Assembly: GCF_014298075.1 (NCBI RefSeq)
Contig: NZ_CP060418.1
Location: 3,472,001-3,536,000 of the forward strand
DNA: 64,000 nt
Reading direction: 5' to 3'
Source: Enterobacter sp. JUb54
Lineage (GTDB): Bacteria; Pseudomonadota; Gammaproteobacteria; Enterobacterales; Enterobacteriaceae
Shown here piece by piece: positions 1 to 46,850 of the stretch (the first letter of the stretch is position 1; every line of letters begins with the position of its first letter). The translations under genes and the position numbers were made by a program. Below the pieces are notes generated by a model. That model was not told where the DNA came from, searched no databases, and worked only from the letters and a program-made list of their open reading frames with translations.

Positions 1-1358
1 GTAGAGACCACGAAATCTTCCGCGATGCTCTCCAGCTGCTCATATTCCCGCTGCGACAGCGTGGCGGCAATCTCAAGCTGCGGATACTTACGCTGCAAAA
101 TCGCCTCGATCATCCGCACCATCGCATTGCTGGTATCACACACCAGCAGCACCCGCGGCTGGCGCTGATAACCGATGTTGTAATGACGCTCCAGCCCGAC
201 GCCGACGTGCAGCACCAGGAAGCCAATTTCGTTTTCGCTAATGGTATAGGGGGTATATTTGCCCCAGCTGCTCACCGCCGCGAGGGTCATATCCCACGAC
301 ATCGGATAGTGCTGCTTAATGTTATCGAGCAGCGGGTTGGGGATCATTATCTGGTAGCGCACCCGGGTGATCATGGTCTTAATGTGGGTCAGCAGGTCGG
401 CATGCAGCTGGGCGTCGTCCAGCAGGTTGTAGTTATACTGGCTGTTGATGTAGTTCAGGATGTAGTTCACCAGCGCTTCGCCATCGTCGGCGCTGATGGT
501 GCCCGGATCGACGTCCTGGACCTGACGGGCGGCGAGGTGGACGCACAGCCACTCTTCTTCCGCCAGCGAGAGGGTTTTCCCCGCCTGCTGCTGCAGGACC
601 GCAGCCAGATCCCGTGCGGCATCCCGCACGTTCTGCGCCACGTCTTCGGCGCTAAACTCGGCCAACGGATAGCCCTGGCTCACGCGATGGACTACCACCG
701 CGCTGTACAGCCGGATAAAGCGCTCCCCTTCATCGGTCAGACGAACATGGTGGCGGGTCAGGATCTCCTGCAACACGCCCCCCAGCTGTTCCTGGACATC
801 CGAATTTAACGCCTCTTCCCCCATCAGCGGATTCAACCCGCCCTGCTGCACCTGCTGCCACAGCAGATCGGTCAGGCAGGCGCGAATCGACACTTCGCTG
901 CCGAACAAGCGCATGCCGTGACGCGGGCGCGTCTCCAGGGCCAGCTGATAGCGCTGAAAACGCTCGCGCACCTCGACCATGTCGTTTTGCAGGGTCGCGC
1001 GACTGACGAACCACTCGTCCGCCAGGTCTTCAAGCTTGATAGAGAACGCCGAGGTCAAAAAGCGCACCAGCAGAAAGTTGATGCGATCCTGGGCGGTGCG
1101 CGGGATATGCTGCGGCTTTGGCGCGCTCGCCTCCAGGGTCTGGTAGCGCGACGGATCGTCGATTTTCAGTTGATAGCCGCTGCCGCGGGTCAAAATAAAT
1201 TGCGCGCCGTAATGCTCTAATAGCGCGTTCAGCGCGGTGATATCGGCGCGAACGGTACGGGTAGAAACCGACAGCCGCTGCGCCAGTTCATCCTGGGGCA
1301 GCGTTTCGTTTTGCAGCAAGGTAAACAGTTGCGCTAAACGTTGGTTGGGAAATCGCAT
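1..1358 (-). CDS. PRD-type transcriptional activator (BglG/MtlR-like), C-terminus off the window
   Basis: 452 codons are visible from the ATG at 1358; the C-terminus lies beyond base 1. Residues 1-65 form a winged helix-turn-helix (ELAQRLSVSTRTVRAD region), followed by a second helical HTH-like region. Two PTS regulation domains lie at about 180-290 and 295-395, and an EIIB-like fold begins near 401 (VLLVCDTSN). There is no N-terminal RNA-binding CAT domain, so it should bind DNA like MtlR or LicR rather than act as an antiterminator. It lies 22 bases downstream of the lactonase, so it is probably the last gene of the operon starting near 8213 and its local regulator. PRD histidines suggest control by phosphorylation. 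The family call is firm; the target is inferred from position. Confidence 0.85.
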   Translation of the reverse strand, partial: MRFPNQRLAQLFTLLQNETLPQDELAQRLSVSTRTVRADITALNALLEHYGAQFILTRGSGYQLKIDDPSRYQTLEASAPKPQHIPRTAQDRINFLLVRFLTSAFSIKLEDLADEWFVSRATLQNDMVEVRERFQRYQLALETRPRHGMRLFGSEVSIRACLTDLLWQQVQQGGLNPLMGEEALNSDVQEQLGGVLQEILTRHHVRLTDEGERFIRLYSAVVVHRVSQGYPLAEFSAEDVAQNVRDAARDLAAVLQQQAGKTLSLAEEEWLCVHLAARQVQDVDPGTISADDGEALVNYILNYINSQYNYNLLDDAQLHADLLTHIKTMITRVRYQIMIPNPLLDNIKQHYPMSWDMTLAAVSSWGKYTPYTISENEIGFLVLHVGVGLERHYNIGYQRQPRVLLVCDTSNAMVRMIEAILQRKYPQLEIAATLSQREYEQLESIAEDFVVS

Positions 1359-1380: not shown

Positions 1381-2532
1381 TCACGGTTGAGCGGATATCA
1401 CCATCTGTGACGGGCTGCCTACCGGGGTGTATTCCGGGGCAAAAGTCAGTTTGCCGCTCCTGGCCGCAACGCTAAAACGGGTAATATTATCACTGCGTTG
1501 GTTCATGACGTACAGCCATTGCCCCTGATTATCCAGCGTCAACGTGCGGGGGTAGTCGCCACGGGTCCAGATATCTTCCTGATGGCTCAGGCTGCCGTCG
1601 GCCAGCACGCTAAAGTGGGCAATACTGTTATGCAGACGGTTGGCGACATACAGCTGCTTACCGTCAGGGCTGAGTACCAGGCCCGCGGCGAAACTGGTGC
1701 CTTTGTACTCCTTCGGCAGCGCGGAGATGGTTTTGCCCTCACGCAGCAGCCCGCTTTTCTTATCAAGATGATAGAAGGTCAGCGTCGAGGCTTCTTCGTT
1801 AATCAGCCACAGGCCGTCGCCCTTCGGTGTAAAGACAAAGTGACGTGGTCCGGCGCCTTCCGACGATGCGGCAATAAACGGCGGATCGTTCGGCGTCAGA
1901 GTGCCGCTGCGGTTATCCAGCCGGTACTGATAGATACGATCCAGCCCCAGATCGGTGGAAAACACATACTGCCCACTCGGATCGGCGGCGATCATATGAG
2001 CGTGAGGACCGTTATGATCGCTAATGGCGAAGCTGCCCTCAACGGCCGCCGCCGGGCTTTCTGCTCCGGCCGGACCTTCGTCCTGGTGGCTATCCACCGC
2101 CTCGCCCAGGCTGCCATCGTCTTTCACCGGCAACACCGCAACCGAGCCGCTAACGTAGTTCGCCACCAGCAGATGGCGACCGTCCGGCGTCAGCGACAGA
2201 TACACCGGCCCGGCCCCCGCCGAAGAGACCTGATTGAGATCGGTCAGTTCGCCATTGGATTCAACTCGCCACGCCTGCACCACGCCCTTTTCGACTTCAC
2301 TGGCGGCATACAGGGTTTTACCATCCCGCGACACGGCGAGCTGCGCGACGTTCTGCAACGAACTGACCAGCGCTTTATCACGGAGCGCGCCGGTTTTACT
2401 GTCGACGGTAAACCGGTACAGCCCCTCCCCGTTGGGATTATAGGTACCTACCCAGGCATAATGGGTTTGCGCACAGGCGGTGGTAGCCAGCAGGGAAAGT
2501 GATGCAGCAAGCAGGTGACGAGCGGTTGGCAT
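1381..2532 (-). CDS. Exported beta-propeller lactonase (YbhE/Pgl-like family)
   Basis: A 383-residue protein with a signal peptide (about residues 1-22, ending ATTACA) and a repetitive seven-bladed propeller typical of the lactonase family that includes cytoplasmic 6-phosphogluconolactonase YbhE. Recurrent blade signatures are visible (SPDGKQLYVANR, TPDGRHLLVANY, DPSGQYVFSTD). ATG at 2532 is preferred over an upstream in-frame codon because AGGAG stands six bases before it. The signal peptide predicts a periplasmic enzyme that opens sugar lactones, unlike YbhE. It sits between the KDPG-type aldolase and the PRD regulator, 81 bases after the former, which suggests a lactone or aldonate substrate for the operon. 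Substrate is not known. Confidence 0.8.
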   Translation of the reverse strand: MPTARHLLAASLSLLATTACAQTHYAWVGTYNPNGEGLYRFTVDSKTGALRDKALVSSLQNVAQLAVSRDGKTLYAASEVEKGVVQAWRVESNGELTDLNQVSSAGAGPVYLSLTPDGRHLLVANYVSGSVAVLPVKDDGSLGEAVDSHQDEGPAGAESPAAAVEGSFAISDHNGPHAHMIAADPSGQYVFSTDLGLDRIYQYRLDNRSGTLTPNDPPFIAASSEGAGPRHFVFTPKGDGLWLINEEASTLTFYHLDKKSGLLREGKTISALPKEYKGTSFAAGLVLSPDGKQLYVANRLHNSIAHFSVLADGSLSHQEDIWTRGDYPRTLTLDNQGQWLYVMNQRSDNITRFSVAARSGKLTFAPEYTPVGSPSQMVISAQP

Positions 2533-2613
2533 AACGACTCCTTGAGGGTGCAATAAGCTGTTTCCACGCGCACGTTTTGCGATCGGTACGTGCGCGCGGC
2601 GAGGATGACAATC

Positions 2614-3354
2614 CTACTTAACGAGCGCTTTAGTCATCTCCAGCAGCTGGCGAACGTCCGCCGGGCGGGTATGACCGCTTTCTTTATCAATAATAGAGCT
2701 ATAAATGTGCGGGATAATTTTACTGACCCCGGCGTCCAGCGCAATCTGCAGAATTTCGCTGTAGTTCTCCAGGTCGATCCCGCCGGTCGGCTCCAGCCAG
2801 AAATCATGGCGGGCACAGGCCTGCGCCACTGCCAGAAACTCATCGCGATGCTTCAGGCCGCCCATCGGGAAGTATTTGATCGAGCTGCCGCCCATATCTT
2901 TCAACAGCGCGATGGCGGTTTCCAGCGGCACGATACCGTCTGGCGCCTTGCTGCTCAGCGGGCCGGTTGAGATCTTAACCATACCCGGCGTGCCGGTCGG
3001 CGAGACCAGACCGTTGACCACGGTATCATTCTGCCCCAGCAGCGCACGGCTGGTTGCGACCCCGGTAAAGACCTGGTTCACGTGCTGCGGCTGCACCTGG
3101 CGTGAAATTTCACTGACCATCGCCGACTGGTTCGGATCTCCCGCCCCCAGACCGACCGACAGCGCGTTATCGATAAGCTGCGCATATTCGCGCATATCCG
3201 CCACCGCACTCGCCACGTCAGGATAGTTCTTGGAGAGCACCCCCACCAGGACGTGACCTTCTGCCGCCTCGTAAATCTCACGTGCGTTCTCTTTGCTGCC
3301 CGCCAGGACGTTCAGGCAGACGCGGTCACGGTAAAAATTTGGGGTCAGTTTCAT
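2614..3354 (-). CDS. dgaF: DgaF-type KDGP aldolase family protein
   Basis: A 246-residue member of the KDGP aldolase family (recalled as TIGR03581, EF_0839/AHA_3917 type). Lys160 in SSIKYFPMGG matches the Schiff-base lysine context of Eda (KFFP), which supports a class I aldolase cleaving 2-keto-3-deoxy-6-phosphogluconate to pyruvate and glyceraldehyde 3-phosphate. The ATG at 3354 overlaps the end of the PLP lyase gene by four bases and has AAGGAG eight bases upstream, so translation is coupled. In Salmonella, DgaF with DgaE completes D-glucosaminate breakdown. Here the uptake genes differ from that PTS, so the symbol marks the family and the exact substrate is inferred. Confidence 0.8.
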   Translation of the reverse strand: MKLTPNFYRDRVCLNVLAGSKENAREIYEAAEGHVLVGVLSKNYPDVASAVADMREYAQLIDNALSVGLGAGDPNQSAMVSEISRQVQPQHVNQVFTGVATSRALLGQNDTVVNGLVSPTGTPGMVKISTGPLSSKAPDGIVPLETAIALLKDMGGSSIKYFPMGGLKHRDEFLAVAQACARHDFWLEPTGGIDLENYSEILQIALDAGVSKIIPHIYSSIIDKESGHTRPADVRQLLEMTKALVK

Positions 3355-4469
3355 GCTTTTTTCTCCTTGTTCAGAACCTCGGCGATGCGACGAGCGACAA
3401 TCTCCAGCTGCTGCGCGTTCACGCTGCGGACATCGGCTTCAATAATCCCTTCGTTAGCTTTGTAGCCACGGAAGTAGATAGCGTATTCACCCTGCTTTAA
3501 TGCCTCCACCAGTTCGCCGGTAGCGATGCCGGTGACGGCCTCATCAAATTTAATTTCGGTACGGGCGATGTCACGCCCGGCGCTGTCCCAGACCACGCAG
3601 CCGGTCACCCCCTCAAGGGTATTGAGCTGGTTAATAAACGGCGTCATCTTGGCCACCATCTCATCACCGCTCTCTTTACGCGCCGTCAGGTAGTGTTCGA
3701 TGGCGCAGGTCAGGCCGAGGATCCCCTCTTTACCCACTTTCATCGCCCGGCCAATGCCCGCCGACTGGCGTTTCACCCACTCGACGTACTGGGTTTTGCC
3801 GACCACCAGACCGCTGGTCGGCCCTTCAATCGCTTTCGCGCCGCTGTAAATCACCAGGTCAGCGCCGGCGCGGTAGTAGCATTGCAGATCTTCTTCCGCG
3901 GCTGCATCGACGATCAACGGCAGGTTATGTTTACGCGCCACCACTACCGCCTGTTCGACGCTGAGCATGCTTTTCTGTACGCAGTGGTGCGATTTAATGT
4001 ACAGAATCGCCGCCGTGCGCGGAGTGATCGCCGCCGCCAGCTGGTCGGCGGAACATTCGTTGGCGTAGCCCGCTTCCACCAGCTTGCCGCCCCCCAGCGC
4101 CACCATCGAGCCGACCGGCGCGCCGAAGTTAACGTTGTGGCCTTTCGGCAGCACGATTTCATTGTTTTCGATCGGCGTGACGTGCAGGTTTTCCAGCAGC
4201 CAGGCGCTGTCTTTCACCAGCACCGCCGCAACCGACTGGGCAATCCCCGCTGAGGCGCAGGAGACGACGGTAGCGCCTTCCACTTCCAGCAGATTCGCAA
4301 TGTATTCGCCGGTCTTGTTCACCAGGTCTTTCATTTCGAAGTAGTGATTCATGCCGCTCATCACCGCATCCACCACCTCAGGGCGCGGCGTGGAAACGCC
4401 CAGCGCCGTCATGCGACCGGATGTATTAATGACTTGTTTTAAATTGTATTTCTCAAAAATTGAAGGCAT
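3351..4469 (-). CDS. dgaE: DgaE-type PLP-dependent ammonia-lyase
   Basis: A 372-residue SelA-like, fold-type I PLP enzyme. Lys212 in VIYSGAKAIEGPTSG is the likely internal aldimine lysine and Asp188 in LIVDAAAEED the pyridine-nitrogen partner. The family includes DgaE, which converts D-glucosaminate 6-phosphate into 2-keto-3-deoxy-6-phosphogluconate and ammonia, the substrate of the next enzyme DgaF. The gene overlaps the upstream amidohydrolase by 17 bases and the aldolase by four, so all three are translationally coupled. The enzyme class is well supported. The stereochemistry and phosphorylation state of the substrate cannot be read from sequence. Confidence 0.8.
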   Translation of the reverse strand: MPSIFEKYNLKQVINTSGRMTALGVSTPRPEVVDAVMSGMNHYFEMKDLVNKTGEYIANLLEVEGATVVSCASAGIAQSVAAVLVKDSAWLLENLHVTPIENNEIVLPKGHNVNFGAPVGSMVALGGGKLVEAGYANECSADQLAAAITPRTAAILYIKSHHCVQKSMLSVEQAVVVARKHNLPLIVDAAAEEDLQCYYRAGADLVIYSGAKAIEGPTSGLVVGKTQYVEWVKRQSAGIGRAMKVGKEGILGLTCAIEHYLTARKESGDEMVAKMTPFINQLNTLEGVTGCVVWDSAGRDIARTEIKFDEAVTGIATGELVEALKQGEYAIYFRGYKANEGIIEADVRSVNAQQLEIVARRIAEVLNKEKKA

Positions 4470-5586
4470 TTTCCGCGCTCCCTTGTTCGGTCAGATAGCC
4501 CTTGCCTGCGCGAATCGCGGCAAGCGGCACCAGAATATTGTCAGCCTGCAGGCTCTCTTTTTCCGCGTCGACCAGCAGCGTTGGCGCATGCTCGACGGTA
4601 AACAGCGTTAAATCGGCATCAAAACCGACTGCCAGCCGCCCTTTGTGCTTCAGGCGCAGCCCGTCTGCGGCCCCGGCGGTCACGCAGTCAATGACCTGCG
4701 GCAGCGACATGCCGATGGCGAGAAACTTCGACATCACCAGCGCCAGCGAGCGGACCGGGCCGTCGATGCGGTTACGACAGTAAATATCGGAACTGATGGT
4801 ATGCGGCAGGATCCCCATCGCAATGGCCCGACGCGCCACCTCGAAGCTGAAGCTGGCGGTACCGTGGCCGACATCCAGTCGTACGCCGCGCTGTAGCGCG
4901 CGGGTGATCGAAGCGCGCAGCTCGCCGGAAGGCGCCAGGATGCGGTTCGGTTTGCCGTTATAGCAGTGGGTAATGATGTCGCCTGCGCTCAGCAGGTCGG
5001 CAATCTCATCGAGGTTCGGTGGGTTATTGCCGATATGCACCATCAGCGGCAGATCGCCGTTTTCCTGCTGAATAGTTTTCGCCCGCTCAAGCGGGGTAAT
5101 GCCGTTTTCGCCGACCACGCTGCTGCTCATGCGCGCTTTCAGGCCAACGATAAAATCCGGATGGCGTTTGACCGCCTGCTGTACCGCCTCGGCATCGATG
5201 TTGGCCATGTTGGCCAGTTCATTCTGGGCAATCAGTCCGACACGGGAGATATTGAGCAGCGCATAGACCTCGGTCGCCGCCTCGCGGGTCAGCTGATAAA
5301 AGTCATCAACATCGTCCGCGCCGGTGCTGCCGGCATCGATCACGGTGGTGACGCCGCAGGCCACGCCGACGCTATCCGGCTGGTCGTGATAAATCGGTGA
5401 GTTCGGGTAGCAGTGGACGTGGGAATCAATCCAGCCGGCGCTGACATAGTAACGCCCCTGCAGCTCGATGGTTTTGTGCGATGGCGCGTTAATCTCGCCC
5501 AGCGCGGCAATTTTTCCGTCCTGGATGGCAATATCGGTCAGGGTATCGTCGACGAGGCGCGCACGGCGCAGGAGTAAATCAAACAT
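4453..5586 (-). CDS. Amidohydrolase/deacetylase of the DgaE-associated operon
   Basis: A 377-residue amidohydrolase of the dihydroorotase/isoaspartyl dipeptidase superfamily (recalled as TIGR03583, EF_0837/AHA_3915 group). The complete binuclear metal set is visible: His56 and His58 (DSHVHCYP), Lys150 in GLKARMSSS as the probable carboxylated lysine, His184 (MVHIGNN), His207 (THCYNGK) and Asp267 (SSDIYC). It should therefore be active. Followed directly by an ammonia-lyase acting on 2-amino sugar acids, it probably removes an N-acyl group from the imported compound. It is cytoplasmic, with no signal peptide. The particular acyl group and sugar are unknown. Confidence 0.8.
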   Translation of the reverse strand: MFDLLLRRARLVDDTLTDIAIQDGKIAALGEINAPSHKTIELQGRYYVSAGWIDSHVHCYPNSPIYHDQPDSVGVACGVTTVIDAGSTGADDVDDFYQLTREAATEVYALLNISRVGLIAQNELANMANIDAEAVQQAVKRHPDFIVGLKARMSSSVVGENGITPLERAKTIQQENGDLPLMVHIGNNPPNLDEIADLLSAGDIITHCYNGKPNRILAPSGELRASITRALQRGVRLDVGHGTASFSFEVARRAIAMGILPHTISSDIYCRNRIDGPVRSLALVMSKFLAIGMSLPQVIDCVTAGAADGLRLKHKGRLAVGFDADLTLFTVEHAPTLLVDAEKESLQADNILVPLAAIRAGKGYLTEQGSAENAFNF

Positions 5587-5628
5587 ACGTATCTCCTGTT
5601 AAGGCGGGCGCCTGAGCGCCCGTGAATA

Positions 5629-6270
5629 TCAAAGCGCAACCGGGAAGATGGAACCTAAAATCATCGCCCCGAGGATCGCGCCGCCGGTAATCGGCTTCTG
5701 CCAGATGTAAAACAGCAGCGCCCCGAGCAGAGAACCGATGCCGATAGGAATAGAGGCGGTCATCGCGCTGAGGATAATCAACGGCCCGAGGAAGCGGCCA
5801 GAGGCGTTACCCGCGCCCATCATGACGTCGGCGCCGTAGGTCGAGTTGCTCTGGTTAACCGTGAACTTACGCGCCAGGATGATGATGTAGCCAATCGCCA
5901 GGCCGATAATCAGGCCGGTTGCCAGGGAAGCGGCGAAGTTCGCTACCGGGAAAATAATACCCGCGCCCAGCAGCAGCGCCGGCACGCCGAGGCCGACCCC
6001 GGTCTGGATCGCCCCGCCGATATCAAGAATACCGACCAGCGAACCTTCGATGATACGAGCGAACAGGAAGCTCGCGCCAAACGCCGCCACCGCACCGTAC
6101 ACGCCGGTGTCGATCCCGGATTTCAGCATCGCCACGAAGGCGACTTCGTTAAACGCGCCGATACCGTAGAGGTAGTACATGTGGGTCCCGGCGAACACGC
6201 CGGAAGAGAGCAGGCCGACAAAGATCGGGAATGACCAGTCCGCGTACCAAAAACCTTTATTCTGTTCCAT
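5629..6270 (-). CDS. DUF4310 family membrane protein, putative transporter subunit
   Basis: A 213-residue integral membrane protein with roughly six hydrophobic segments and many Gly/Ala-rich helices (for example IGGAIQTGVGLGVPALLLGAG). It belongs to a rare conserved family (DUF4310, the EF_0833-type neighbourhood) with no assigned function that I know. It lies 11 bases after the DUF4311 gene and 42 bases before the amidohydrolase. Together with DUF4311 it is the only membrane component of the operon, so I infer a two-protein permease. It does not show ABC, TRAP or MFS motifs, nor a PTS EIIC signature I can recognise. Confidence 0.75.
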   Translation of the reverse strand: MEQNKGFWYADWSFPIFVGLLSSGVFAGTHMYYLYGIGAFNEVAFVAMLKSGIDTGVYGAVAAFGASFLFARIIEGSLVGILDIGGAIQTGVGLGVPALLLGAGIIFPVANFAASLATGLIIGLAIGYIIILARKFTVNQSNSTYGADVMMGAGNASGRFLGPLIILSAMTASIPIGIGSLLGALLFYIWQKPITGGAILGAMILGSIFPVAL

Positions 6271-6281
6271 GCGTTATCCCC

Positions 6282-7058
6282 TTATTTGCCGCTCAGCGCG
6301 CTATGCAGCAGATCCAGCCAGTTCGGCACGGTCATGTGGAAGGACTCAATCATCTTCATGTCGAATCCACGGAAGAAGCCACTCAGCACGAACAGGGCGA
6401 TAATGGCCGTCATCATGATTTTGGTGACGCGGTTCCAGCCGGCGTCTTCAACGCCTTTACCGATCAGAATGCCCAGTACCAGACCCGGTACGGCGTTACC
6501 CATAATCAGTTGCGCGGCGCCGCCGAAAATAGTGGCCCAGAAGCCTGATTTCTTACCGGCATCGATTGCGGCTAACCAGAAGATAACCGGCATGATGATG
6601 TTCACCAGCAGGTTGGCCGCAGGCACCAGCACTTTTACCGCCGTAACCTGTAACGCTTCCGGTACTGCGGAGGCCGTGGAGTTAAGGAATGCCACCACCA
6701 CCATGCCGATAAAGCCGCAGGCAATGGCCATTTTCTTCGGATCGTGCAGAGTTTCTGCCACGTTGCGATTTTTGAGCATCAGGGCTGAGGCGCCCCAGTG
6801 CGGGATAATGCGGTGGTCAACGTCCTGGGTGAAAGCACCCGCTGCGACGGACGATGCCCAGGCGTTAAAGAAGAAGCCCAGACCAAAGGAGAAATGGGAA
6901 GCCGGATCGCCCTCACAGGAATTCAGCTCGCCCAAGGTACGAAACGCCCCCATCCCCTGCGTGGTAGGCGCATGAAACATGCGTGCCGCTCCGGCGCCCA
7001 CACCGACGCCGACCAGGCCGCCGATAATGAGCGATTTTATTAAAATTATCAGGAACAT
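6282..7058 (-). CDS. DUF4311 family membrane protein, putative transporter subunit
   Basis: A 258-residue membrane protein with about six to seven hydrophobic segments, beginning at an N-terminal helix (MFLIILIKSLIIGGLVGVG). A conserved-looking polar loop (LNSCEGDPASHFSFGLGFFFNAW) and a glycine-rich helix pair (GNAVPGLVLGILIGKG) stand out and could line a substrate path. It belongs to the DUF4311 family, which occurs in the same short operon in Enterococcus and Aeromonas. It is placed between the two small soluble proteins and DUF4310. A transport role is inferred from topology and the absence of any other importer here. Confidence 0.75.
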   Translation of the reverse strand: MFLIILIKSLIIGGLVGVGVGAGAARMFHAPTTQGMGAFRTLGELNSCEGDPASHFSFGLGFFFNAWASSVAAGAFTQDVDHRIIPHWGASALMLKNRNVAETLHDPKKMAIACGFIGMVVVAFLNSTASAVPEALQVTAVKVLVPAANLLVNIIMPVIFWLAAIDAGKKSGFWATIFGGAAQLIMGNAVPGLVLGILIGKGVEDAGWNRVTKIMMTAIIALFVLSGFFRGFDMKMIESFHMTVPNWLDLLHSALSGK

Positions 7059-7079
7059 AGTTTAACCCTATGATGAGTT

Positions 7080-7385
7080 TCAGGTTTGCGTGACAAAATC
7101 CACTTGATCAACATTAATGGCCGTCACGGTGACGGTGACCTCCAGCTCCACGCTGTAGGTCCGTCGTTCACGGCGCAAAAAGAAGAACAGAAATGCTTCT
7201 TTACGCACCGCTTCACGCGCATGAACAACCTTCACATCCTGTGGCTCAATACGCAGTAAGATCTGCGGTGAGGTGCCCATCACCGCTGCTTGTACATGGT
7301 TCAGGGCATCGGCAAAGGCGCGCGTTTTGCTTTCGCCTTTGCCCTTGACGCTCACCGTGGTGGTGAATTGTTCTTTCATGCTCAC
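7080..7385 (-). CDS. DUF4312 family small soluble protein
   Basis: A 101-residue protein with no signal peptide or membrane segment (DUF4312, EF_0831 type). It alternates a polar N-terminal half (KGKGESKTRAFADALNHVQ) with a strand-rich C-terminal half (YSVELEVTVTVTAINVDQVDF), suggesting a small alpha/beta fold. Its ATG at 7385 overlaps the end of the SFCGS gene by four bases, so the two proteins are probably made in equal amounts. By position it may be a cytoplasmic partner of the DUF4311/DUF4310 membrane pair. No catalytic motif is evident. Confidence 0.7.
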   Translation of the reverse strand: MSMKEQFTTTVSVKGKGESKTRAFADALNHVQAAVMGTSPQILLRIEPQDVKVVHAREAVRKEAFLFFFLRRERRTYSVELEVTVTVTAINVDQVDFVTQT

Positions 7386-7744
7386 GCGCCGTATTTCTTT
7401 TTCCAGGCTTCTACCAGGCGCTCGCCCAGCTCTTCTTTATCCATAAAGCCGAAACCCAGTACGTTGTAGCCTTCGTTGATGGCGGTCACGCCTTCATCCA
7501 CGGAACGCATGCCATATTTCGCTTTATAGCCATGCTTGTTTTGCGCGGTAATCGCCCCTGCGCCACCGCTGCCGCAGAAGGAGATGCCAAAGGTGGCATT
7601 CTCGGCTTTCATCACGTCACCCAGCTTCATATCCGCAGCAACGCCCGGAACCACCACGGCACGTGCGCCGGCTTTTTCTGCACCTGCAGCGACTTTTTGT
7701 CCTTTTCCCAGACGATCGCCGATTACGATAGTAATTTGTTCCAT
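7382..7744 (-). CDS. Glycine-rich SFCGS family protein
   Basis: A 120-residue cytoplasmic protein carrying the family signature ISFCGSGGAGAIT with Cys57 in a glycine-rich turn, after a Rossmann-like first strand (ITIVIGDRLGKGQK). The family (recalled as TIGR03577, EF_0830/AHA_3911) is known only from this operon type and has no proven function. A single cysteine in a loop after a beta strand recalls the phosphoryl-acceptor cysteine of PTS EIIB proteins, though I see no direct sequence match to any EIIB. It lies 10 bases after the PRD gene, with a standard ribosome site (AAGGAG) before the ATG. Confidence 0.75.
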   Translation of the reverse strand: MEQITIVIGDRLGKGQKVAAGAEKAGARAVVVPGVAADMKLGDVMKAENATFGISFCGSGGAGAITAQNKHGYKAKYGMRSVDEGVTAINEGYNVLGFGFMDKEELGERLVEAWKKKYGA

Positions 7745-7754
7745 TTTTTACTCC

Positions 7755-8093
7755 TTACAGGTTGTCTTTTGCGACTTCGAAGTGGACTGACAGCAGCCAG
7801 GACTCTTCTTCTGGCAGGTTGCCAAATTCCGCGACCACTTCGCGAGCAAGCATCATTGAATCTTCTGAAATCTCTTCAAACAGACTGGCATCCACTTCCG
7901 GCAGCGGCTCGCCGCTAATCGACCGGTGGGCCATTGCCCGGACGTGGGAAGTCAGCATCTGCTCCTGGACGGCGTTGGGGATGATATTGCGACGACTTAA
8001 CAGTGCATAAACCTGCTGCAGCATCTTCTCAGCCAGCAGCTCAGTTTGCGTCGCCTGCTCCCCTACGTCGTTTATTACCGCTCCGTTATTCAC
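7755..8093 (-). CDS. Stand-alone PRD domain protein
   Basis: A 112-residue protein made of a single PTS regulation domain (recalled as TIGR03582, EF_0829/AHA_3910), without DNA-binding or EII domains. The GTG at 8093 gives the usual family length. A GTG at 8210 with AAGGG seven bases upstream would add 39 residues that look unlike a PRD and would be read through the 20-bp palindrome, so I prefer 8093, but the start is not settled. As first gene of the operon it may sense PTS or transporter phosphorylation and relay it to the full-length regulator at 1-1358. Histidines in SHVRAMAHRS are possible phosphorylation sites. Confidence 0.65.
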   Translation of the reverse strand: MNNGAVINDVGEQATQTELLAEKMLQQVYALLSRRNIIPNAVQEQMLTSHVRAMAHRSISGEPLPEVDASLFEEISEDSMMLAREVVAEFGNLPEEESWLLSVHFEVAKDNL

Positions 8094-8162
8094 TTGTGTT
8101 ACCCCGTTGATGTCTCTGGGGATAAAACTAGCGCCGAGGGGCTGGAGTTTGTAGCGAGTTGT

Positions 8163-8182
8163 TTTCCACTTCGAAGTGGAAA
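8163..8182. promoter_or_regulatory. Perfect 20-bp palindrome, candidate operator of the DUF4310 operon
   Basis: TTTCCACTTCGAAGTGGAAA reads identically on both strands with no mismatch. It lies about 31-51 bases downstream of the predicted start of transcription and upstream of the preferred PRD start codon. It could bind the HTH/PRD regulator or form a hairpin in the leader; there is no T-tract, so it is not an intrinsic terminator. Confidence 0.5.
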
Positions 8183-8213
8183 GGCGGACGGAGAGCGTGA
8201 TCGATTGCACAAA

Positions 8214-26817: not shown

Positions 26818-26895
26818 AACGGTGAATCGCTAAGGTGAGTAATTAACGCTCTGGCGGCTTTACAGTAGCTTACGCTATACTACCCTGTGTTATAG

Positions 26896-26924
26896 CCGGT
26901 CCAGCGCCTTCGGACCGGTTTTTT
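26896..26924 (+). terminator. Rho-independent terminator after msrA
   Basis: CCGGTCC (26896-26902) and GGACCGG (26912-26918) form the stem, followed by TTTTTT. It lies 78 bases after msrA and 66 before ytfL, so ytfL must start from its own promoter beyond it or by read-through. Confidence 0.85.
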
Positions 26925-26989
26925 ATGTATGCCACATTAGCGTTATCAACTTCCCTTCCGAGGATCTGGCCCCAACGGCTAGATAAACT

Positions 26990-46368: not shown

Positions 46369-46782
<414 letters not shown>

Positions 46783-46803
46783 TTATTCAGCCTCCTGTCT
46801 GGG

Positions 46804-46850
46804 TCAGCCGCGGCCCATGGAGGCAAGGAACGTGGTTAAAGGGCGGCTGA
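46804..46850 (-). promoter_or_regulatory. S6:S18-binding autoregulatory leader of rpsF
   Basis: On the mRNA, TCAGCCGC and GCGGCTGA form an eight-pair stem enclosing 31 bases, 40 bases before the rpsF start. An rpsF leader hairpin bound by the S6:S18 complex, with a CCG motif mimicking 16S rRNA, is established in E. coli and other bacteria. The stem and position agree with it; fine structure was not computed. Confidence 0.7.

Follow-up and report, generated by a model that had tools for sequence, protein, structure and literature searches.

Described routes for the catabolism of amino sugar acids differ in when the phosphate is added. In the Salmonella dgaABCDEF system, which takes up D-glucosaminate through a mannose-family phosphotransferase system (PTS), the phosphate arrives with uptake, according to one report (PMC9529869). 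In the ong pathway of marine bacteria (Pseudoalteromonas), as outlined in another (PMC9537276), N-acetylglucosaminate (GlcNAc1A), a product of oxidative chitin cleavage, enters through the SSS-type importer OngIT, is deacetylated and deaminated towards 2-keto-3-deoxy-6-phosphogluconate (KDPG) by a D-aminoacylase-like deacetylase and a D-amino-acid-deaminase-like lyase (so classed by description only), and is phosphorylated by KdgK after both steps. Here, we analyze a minus-strand operon of Enterobacter sp. JUb54 located in a stretch of 64,000 nucleotides (contig NZ_CP060418.1, positions 3,472,001 to 3,536,000; assembly GCF_014298075.1), which we call the window. Its eight genes encode, in order, a stand-alone PRD protein, an SFCGS protein, DUF4312, DUF4311, DUF4310, an amidohydrolase, a DgaE-type ammonia-lyase and a DgaF-type aldolase. 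Like the Salmonella dga system, the operon places DgaE/DgaF-type enzymes behind small, putative uptake genes, but it lacks the mannose-type enzyme II (EII) components EIIA-D, none of which is found among the Pfam/TIGRFAM matches of its proteins, and its DgaE remains below the equivalog cut-off (NF047797, 372.7 bits against 600), while TIGR01437 and NF047796 place DgaE and DgaF above the cut-offs of their families. The amidohydrolase is an addition relative to dga, which suggests an N-acylated substrate.

We posit that the first five genes, hereafter the block, encode an importer that is coupled to the PTS, phosphorylates its cargo, an N-acyl 2-amino-2-deoxy-aldonate, and feeds the operon enzymes, a reading to which we give an even chance of being right. 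The operon would then serve to break down an N-acylated 2-amino-2-deoxy-aldonic acid, with N-acetylglucosaminate the likeliest, if unproven, substrate. Phosphate would pass from enzyme I (EI) and HPr to a His residue of the PRD protein, to Cys57 of SFCGS, and on to the substrate on its way through DUF4311/DUF4310, with DUF4312 acting as a scaffold, and the block would deliver the acid as its 6-phosphate. The amidohydrolase would subsequently remove the acyl group, the DgaE-type lyase would form KDPG with release of ammonia, and the DgaF-type aldolase would split KDPG into pyruvate and glyceraldehyde 3-phosphate.

Conservation and spread of the block

The eight genes that an earlier note on this DNA had reported were all recovered on the minus strand, and each product scores above a curated TIGRFAM cut-off: the DgaE-type lyase in TIGR01437, the other seven in models that bear the names EF_0829 to EF_0839. 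The presence of this gene set in Enterococcus faecalis, which the note had mentioned, agrees with the TIGRFAM names and with one E. faecalis record, and its description as a portable module holds: the set turns up in Enterobacterales, Aeromonas, Chromobacterium and Iodobacter, on Bartonella plasmids and in many Bacilli. DUF4311 is encoded in 20/20 genomes searched in the genus (this one included) and in 22/40 genomes overall, and DUF4310 in 5/200 genomes sampled from the phylum. The genome itself is one contig of 5.3 Mb, and close matches in the PDB and in Klebsiella pneumoniae indicate Klebsiella or a near relative. A family-name search, with most subscription journals and all of bioRxiv outside its reach, found no paper naming DUF4310, DUF4311 or DUF4312; papers matching SFCGS are unrelated by title, a search with E. 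faecalis locus tags gave nothing relevant, and titles and abstracts from literature searches on neighboring topics assign no function to these families.

For comparison, we assembled 84 loci, comprising the best 80 of 498 relatives, those closest to the E. faecalis protein in a scan of named genomes, plus four loci from a plasmid collection; Bacilli are over-represented among them because of this ranking. In a six-frame profile search with hidden Markov models built from the same loci (counts based on open reading frames [ORFs] were lower), DUF4312, DUF4311 and DUF4310 are present in 84/84 loci, SFCGS in 82 and the PRD protein in 81, compared with 79 each for the amidohydrolase and DgaE, 76 for the activator described below, and 74 for DgaF; several of the missing genes reflect contig ends. 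The run PRD-SFCGS-DUF4312-DUF4311-DUF4310 is whole and in order in 80 of the 84 loci, a count that includes L015, with a partial DUF4310 match, and L026, with the PRD protein fused to the activator. Vagococcus allomyrinae shows such a fusion. The exceptions are L068 and L073, where the beginning of the block is missing at the stretch edge, L042, with an internal loss, and L084, where the genes are out of order by stop-to-stop coordinates. In Aeromonas caviae (L015:8639-9271), one frame stretch is matched by both the DUF4310 and the DgaF profile, while the amidohydrolase and DgaE are missing, an arrangement that looks like an internal deletion; Lactococcus raffinolactis (L042) has lost the end of the activator, the PRD and SFCGS genes, and the start of DUF4312.

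The placement of the enzymes varies, after the block, before it or on both sides, and five Bacillus-type loci have the amidohydrolase ahead of the PRD gene. Five Companilactobacillus loci retain the PRD gene in stretches that contain no activator and have a GntR-type gene (read by eye) in its place. Because the PRD protein persists where a PRD-type activator is absent from the locus, we assign it to the block rather than to regulation alone. The candidacy of the four DUF proteins for uptake, raised in the earlier note, is upheld, but the unit comprises five genes, the PRD protein included. Likewise, the absence of PTS EII genes is true of the window and not of the module everywhere, as the E. 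faecalis operon additionally carries a PTS EIIC, a MupG-like protein and a PfkB kinase.

The amidohydrolase residues H56, H58, K150, H184, H207 and D267, presumably the metal ligands, are invariant in 78/78 sequences, and we propose that this enzyme carries out the N-deacylation.

Alternative uptake modules and sugar kinases

Three loci (L025, L026 and L028) consist of the activator and the block without enzymes, and DgaE is encoded elsewhere in the same genomes. In each case, a second operon (L187, L188, L190) contains a GntR-type gene, EIIC, a protein of ~90 residues, MupG, amidohydrolase, DgaE, DgaF and a PfkB kinase, and the block is absent from the stretches read around it. These operons share the amidohydrolase, DgaE and DgaF families with the window operon and differ from it in EIIC uptake (of the lactose/cellobiose family in L187), the MupG-like protein and the sugar kinase. 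In one of the three genomes (G236), mannose-type EIIA, B, C and D additionally precede DgaE-DgaF (L189), an operon comparable to Salmonella dga in which neither amidohydrolase nor PfkB kinase was found and whose DgaE is likewise below the NF047797 cut-off (363.2). The block, the EIIC/MupG genes and the mannose-type PTS genes each accompany DgaE/DgaF-type enzymes; therefore, three uptake modules serve the same enzyme families. As the block is whole and in order in nearly all loci and occurs without enzymes in these three, we read it as one uptake unit. The amidohydrolase goes with the block and with the EIIC route, whereas none was found in the mannose-type operon, which again suggests an N-acylated substrate. 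Beside its block operon, Companilactobacillus jidongensis (L062) has a second DgaE-DgaF pair together with genes resembling a large regulator and mannose-type PTS genes.

The occurrence of sugar kinases follows the uptake route. Kinases were sought as PfkB-type matches within 5 kb in 74 of the 84 loci; the table excludes L015 and the nine in which no DgaE ORF was called (L016, L019, L022, L025, L026, L028, L032, L049 and L084). A match is present in 15 of 18 MupG-positive block loci and in 6 of 56 MupG-negative ones (Fisher p 2e-8, a value that overstates independence because the loci are related), as well as in 3/3 stand-alone EIIC-MupG operons. Among the six, L048 and L062 have the gene in a cluster upstream of the operon regulator, L053 and L072 show a weak ribokinase-like match, L076 has two matches beyond an opposite-strand gene, and L068 has the gene directly behind DgaF; by our reading of the neighbors, L068 is the one operon-type case among the 56, and the other five belong to neighboring clusters. 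The MupG-positive loci without PfkB are L051, whose contig ends behind DgaE, L024 and L038. We infer that a kinase is needed where MupG releases unphosphorylated acid but dispensable where the enzymes are supplied by the block or by a mannose-type PTS; on this view, the block would act as a phosphorylating importer. The lack of a kinase, remarked upon in the earlier note, is informative only as a comparative pattern, in a search limited to PfkB-type kinases near the operon.

Proposed phosphate transfer and candidate subunits

Residues suited to phosphate transfer are conserved in two block proteins. His89 and His143 of the PRD protein (numbering of the 151-residue form, equivalent to His50 and His104 of the 112-residue form; codons 7944-7946 and 7782-7784) are each invariant in 74/74 sequences, and we propose that this protein is a phospho-acceptor or EIIA-like subunit; Cys57 of SFCGS is invariant in 75/75, and SFCGS is proposed to be an EIIB-like carrier or a sugar-phosphate-binding subunit. 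DUF4312 has no invariant His or Cys in the conservation analysis and is therefore unlikely to be a classical phosphocarrier; we propose an accessory role. DUF4311, in which many polar residues are invariant and for which the AlphaFold model has 11 helices (confidence score pLDDT, 71.7), is proposed to form part of the translocation pathway, with DUF4310 (pLDDT, 69.6) as its partner. A weak Pfam match of DUF4311 to DUF2232 recurs in 35/46 members (best E 0.0005).

Two Bartonella plasmids offer a genomic link to the PTS: block, enzymes and activator are followed by an HPr-EI fusion of 671 residues, and no classical EII is annotated in the plasmid stretches shown, whose annotation is incomplete. 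The fusion, whose domains were read in one plasmid copy (the other is 99.7% identical), contains the motifs GLHARP and GGATSHVAILAR, which we take to be the HPr and EI phosphorylation sites. After Bartonella, the next best among the 12 plasmid records listed are Caballeronia/Paraburkholderia proteins with 54-55% identity. The Caballeronia grimmiae relative is an EIIA-HPr-EI protein adjoining ptsG, which marks the fusion as being of the sugar-transport type; the Bartonella protein lacks the EIIA part of this relative, and its cluster lacks a known EII. More broadly, 24 of the 26 hosts tested (genomes or records) have HPr.

The lyase is also compatible with a phosphorylated substrate. In a docked model presented in the DGL study, the substrate phosphate sits near Arg301, 332 and 346 (PMC9529869); Arg303, Arg334 and Arg348 of the window DgaE align with these residues (alignment to 7LC0) and are kept in 75/76 sequences, the odd one out being short. 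These arginines and the missing kinase would also be accounted for if the block imported an acid that is already phosphorylated, making kinase and PTS transfer unnecessary; we regard this as very improbable, as it leaves unexplained the invariant His pair of the PRD protein, the SFCGS Cys and the HPr-EI fusion.

A number of results weigh against a PTS-coupled, phosphorylating importer. (i) Our search covers only PfkB-type kinases within 5 kb; L024 and L038 do not end early and are true MupG-positive exceptions without PfkB; and few independent lineages underlie the kinase pattern. (ii) The Arg cluster is also present in DgaE proteins of the EIIC route and in 8T7J, so it shows compatibility with a phosphorylated substrate and cannot separate the routes. 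(iii) The HPr-EI fusion could serve the activator only. (iv) HPr and EI were not found in Gammaproteobacterium AwWohl (L081, G242) or in a metagenome-assembled Bacilli genome (L049, G258), both drafts of unknown completeness; AwWohl keeps the eight genes together with both PRD histidines, Cys57 of SFCGS and the Arg residues of DgaE, and a true absence of EI is plausible there because EI is present in just 10/18 genomes of its family. (v) Profile comparison with EIIC/EIID families, which the earlier note had proposed, and further searches brought no EII kinship to light: HHalign gives at most 1.4% for DUF4311/DUF4310 against ManC, ManD and the PF02378 EIIC, in a comparison of low sensitivity in which EII control pairs failed too; no EII family is among the listed Pfam matches (E up to 1) of 46 DUF4311 and 47 DUF4310 sequences, scans in which HMMER filters drop most matches above E 0.1; the AlphaFold models, of middling confidence, show no clear fold match; and SFCGS or YhfU against two EIIB sets (10 and 9 sequences) reaches at most 0.9%. 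The AwWohl contig stops within the activator, whose reading frame is interrupted close to a short coding repeat (L081:14929-15608).

PRD domains are regulatory in known systems. The block could accordingly import its substrate without phosphorylating it. PTS phosphate would then go no further than the PRD protein and the activator, where it would signal catabolite status, and a kinase encoded elsewhere would act on the acid or on 2-keto-3-deoxygluconate, as KdgK does in the ong pathway. Such an arrangement would suit AwWohl, which retains the block in a draft where EI and HPr were not found, and some other hosts, which have PfkB-type kinases in neighboring clusters; the ong pathway deacetylates and deaminates GlcNAc1A ahead of KdgK (PMC9537276). 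We nevertheless think it rather unlikely: the PRD protein is kept in the five Companilactobacillus loci that lack a PRD-type activator, an operon PfkB kinase accompanies the EIIC/MupG route yet is found in 1 of the 56 other block loci, and DgaE retains the phosphate-site Arg cluster.

Among known systems, one of similar build is the E. coli yhf operon, which, like the block, encodes a small PRD protein, a small Cys protein and a multi-span membrane protein. YhfY matches the block PRD protein with an HHalign probability of 95%, and the YhfU Cys, present in 12/12 YhfU sequences, aligns to SFCGS Cys57. Judged by sequence comparison, SFCGS looks related to YhfU: the pair scores 51 and 21%, compared with 13 and 8.5% for SFCGS-RpiB and 20 and 21% for YhfU-RpiB, on a scale on which unrelated pairs stay at or below 1.4% (except one at 3.0%) and true pairs reach 67-95%; the Cys loop alone can raise the score, as RpiB against the lactose-type EIIB gives 25%. 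By contrast, the comparison detects no relation between YhfT and either DUF4311 or DUF4310 (at most 0.7%), the yhf operon has no DUF4312 among its annotated genes, and its enzymes are others than those of the window operon. The gene order YhfZ-YhfY-YhfU-YhfT in five Firmicute loci (L106-L110) suggests that the E. coli operon holds a related kind of uptake block. We read block and yhf as two systems of similar build whose homology is not proven throughout.

Beyond its own family, SFCGS most often shows weak Pfam matches to DUF2620 (the YhfU family; 12 of 29 members), Cecropin (11), LacAB_rpiB (10) and DUF1521 (9). RpiB/LacAB isomerases share with SFCGS a Cys-Gly-Ser/Thr-Gly loop, and the match covers the C-terminal half; SFCGS differs from them in its lesser length and its linkage to a membrane block, and the profile match is weak (best E 0.0037, with the window protein below the gathering score). 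Alternatively, SFCGS could act as an isomerase or epimerase of the RpiB type, with DUF4310-4312 forming a sensor or an enzyme complex in the membrane instead of a transporter. This proposal, which draws on the LacAB_rpiB matches, on RpiB 2VVR as the best PDB sequence match of SFCGS (E 0.18), and on the Pfam scan, which found no clear transporter relative of DUF4311, we hold to be improbable: no other uptake gene is recognized in the window operon by annotation or by the family matches of its proteins, and in three genomes the block stands apart from the enzymes while PTS uptake genes precede the same enzymes. Uptake with possible phosphorylation, as the earlier note had ventured, is better supported than before, although we still infer its mechanism.

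The operon in its window and wider implications

The genes are listed in Table 1. The earlier description of tight packing with many overlaps applies to three of the seven junctions (4, 17 and 4 bases), the remaining ones being gaps of 10 to 42 bases. A start of the PRD gene at 8210 is probably too far upstream; we favor the GTG at 8093 because its product has the length of the annotated Klebsiella pneumoniae orthologue. Nor does the unit end after eight genes, since a lactonase and an activator follow downstream of the DgaF-type gene. The activator, which carries PRD and EIIA_2 domains and is complete in the genome beyond the window (L191:6449-8359), probably controls the operon. The N terminus of the lactonase, inspected by eye, reads like a signal peptide, and the enzyme may open an aldonolactone before uptake; the lactonase of Klebsiella-type loci would fit an aldonolactone precursor. 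Elsewhere in the window, an RpsF leader (46762-46847, minus) and an STnc450 small RNA (26873-26930, plus) match above the Rfam gathering score.

Table 1. Genes of the operon and its downstream extension, in window coordinates (aa, amino acids; PLP, pyridoxal 5'-phosphate; HTH, helix-turn-helix)
Feature	Position	Strand	Details
Stand-alone PRD protein	7755..8093	minus	112 aa from GTG 8093 (151 aa from 8210); TIGR03582 E 3e-39
SFCGS protein	7382..7744	minus	120 aa; TIGR03577, PF14272; Cys57 (codon 7574-7576) in SFCGSGGAG
DUF4312 protein	7080..7385	minus	101 aa; PF14189, TIGR03578
DUF4311 membrane protein	6282..7058	minus	258 aa; PF14188, TIGR03580
DUF4310 membrane protein	5629..6270	minus	213 aa; PF14187, TIGR03579
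Amidohydrolase/deacetylase	4453..5586	minus	377 aa; TIGR03583 E 5e-173; closest PDB chains 8WZY, 2ICS
DgaE-type PLP ammonia-lyase	3351..4469	minus	372 aa; TIGR01437 above cut-off
DgaF-type KDPG aldolase	2614..3354	minus	246 aa; NF047796 above cut-off; closest PDB chain 3M0Z
Lactonase	1381..2553	minus	K. pneumoniae orthologue PF10282 E 4e-100; PRK11028 161 bits, below its cut-off
MtlR/BglG-like activator (HTH, Mga, PRD, EIIA_2), first part	1..1358	minus	Cut by window start; orthologue L016:13682-15592

A broader proposal, which we advance tentatively and consider doubtful, is that the block represents a second, non-homologous group translocation, in which the PRD protein stands in for EIIA, an RpiB-like Cys protein for EIIB, and DUF4311/DUF4310 for EIIC, with YhfY-YhfU-YhfT as a second family of this class. 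Five conserved families, one of them a bare PRD domain and the other four still lacking an assigned function, become one testable system that occurs in Klebsiella-type bacteria, enterococci, lactobacilli and others. If the reading is true, PRD domains, known as targets of PTS regulation, would double as transporter subunits, and phosphorylating uptake would exist beyond the known EII families; it would also hint at the function of the uncharacterized E. coli yhf operon and at a route by which bacteria eat oxidized amino sugars.

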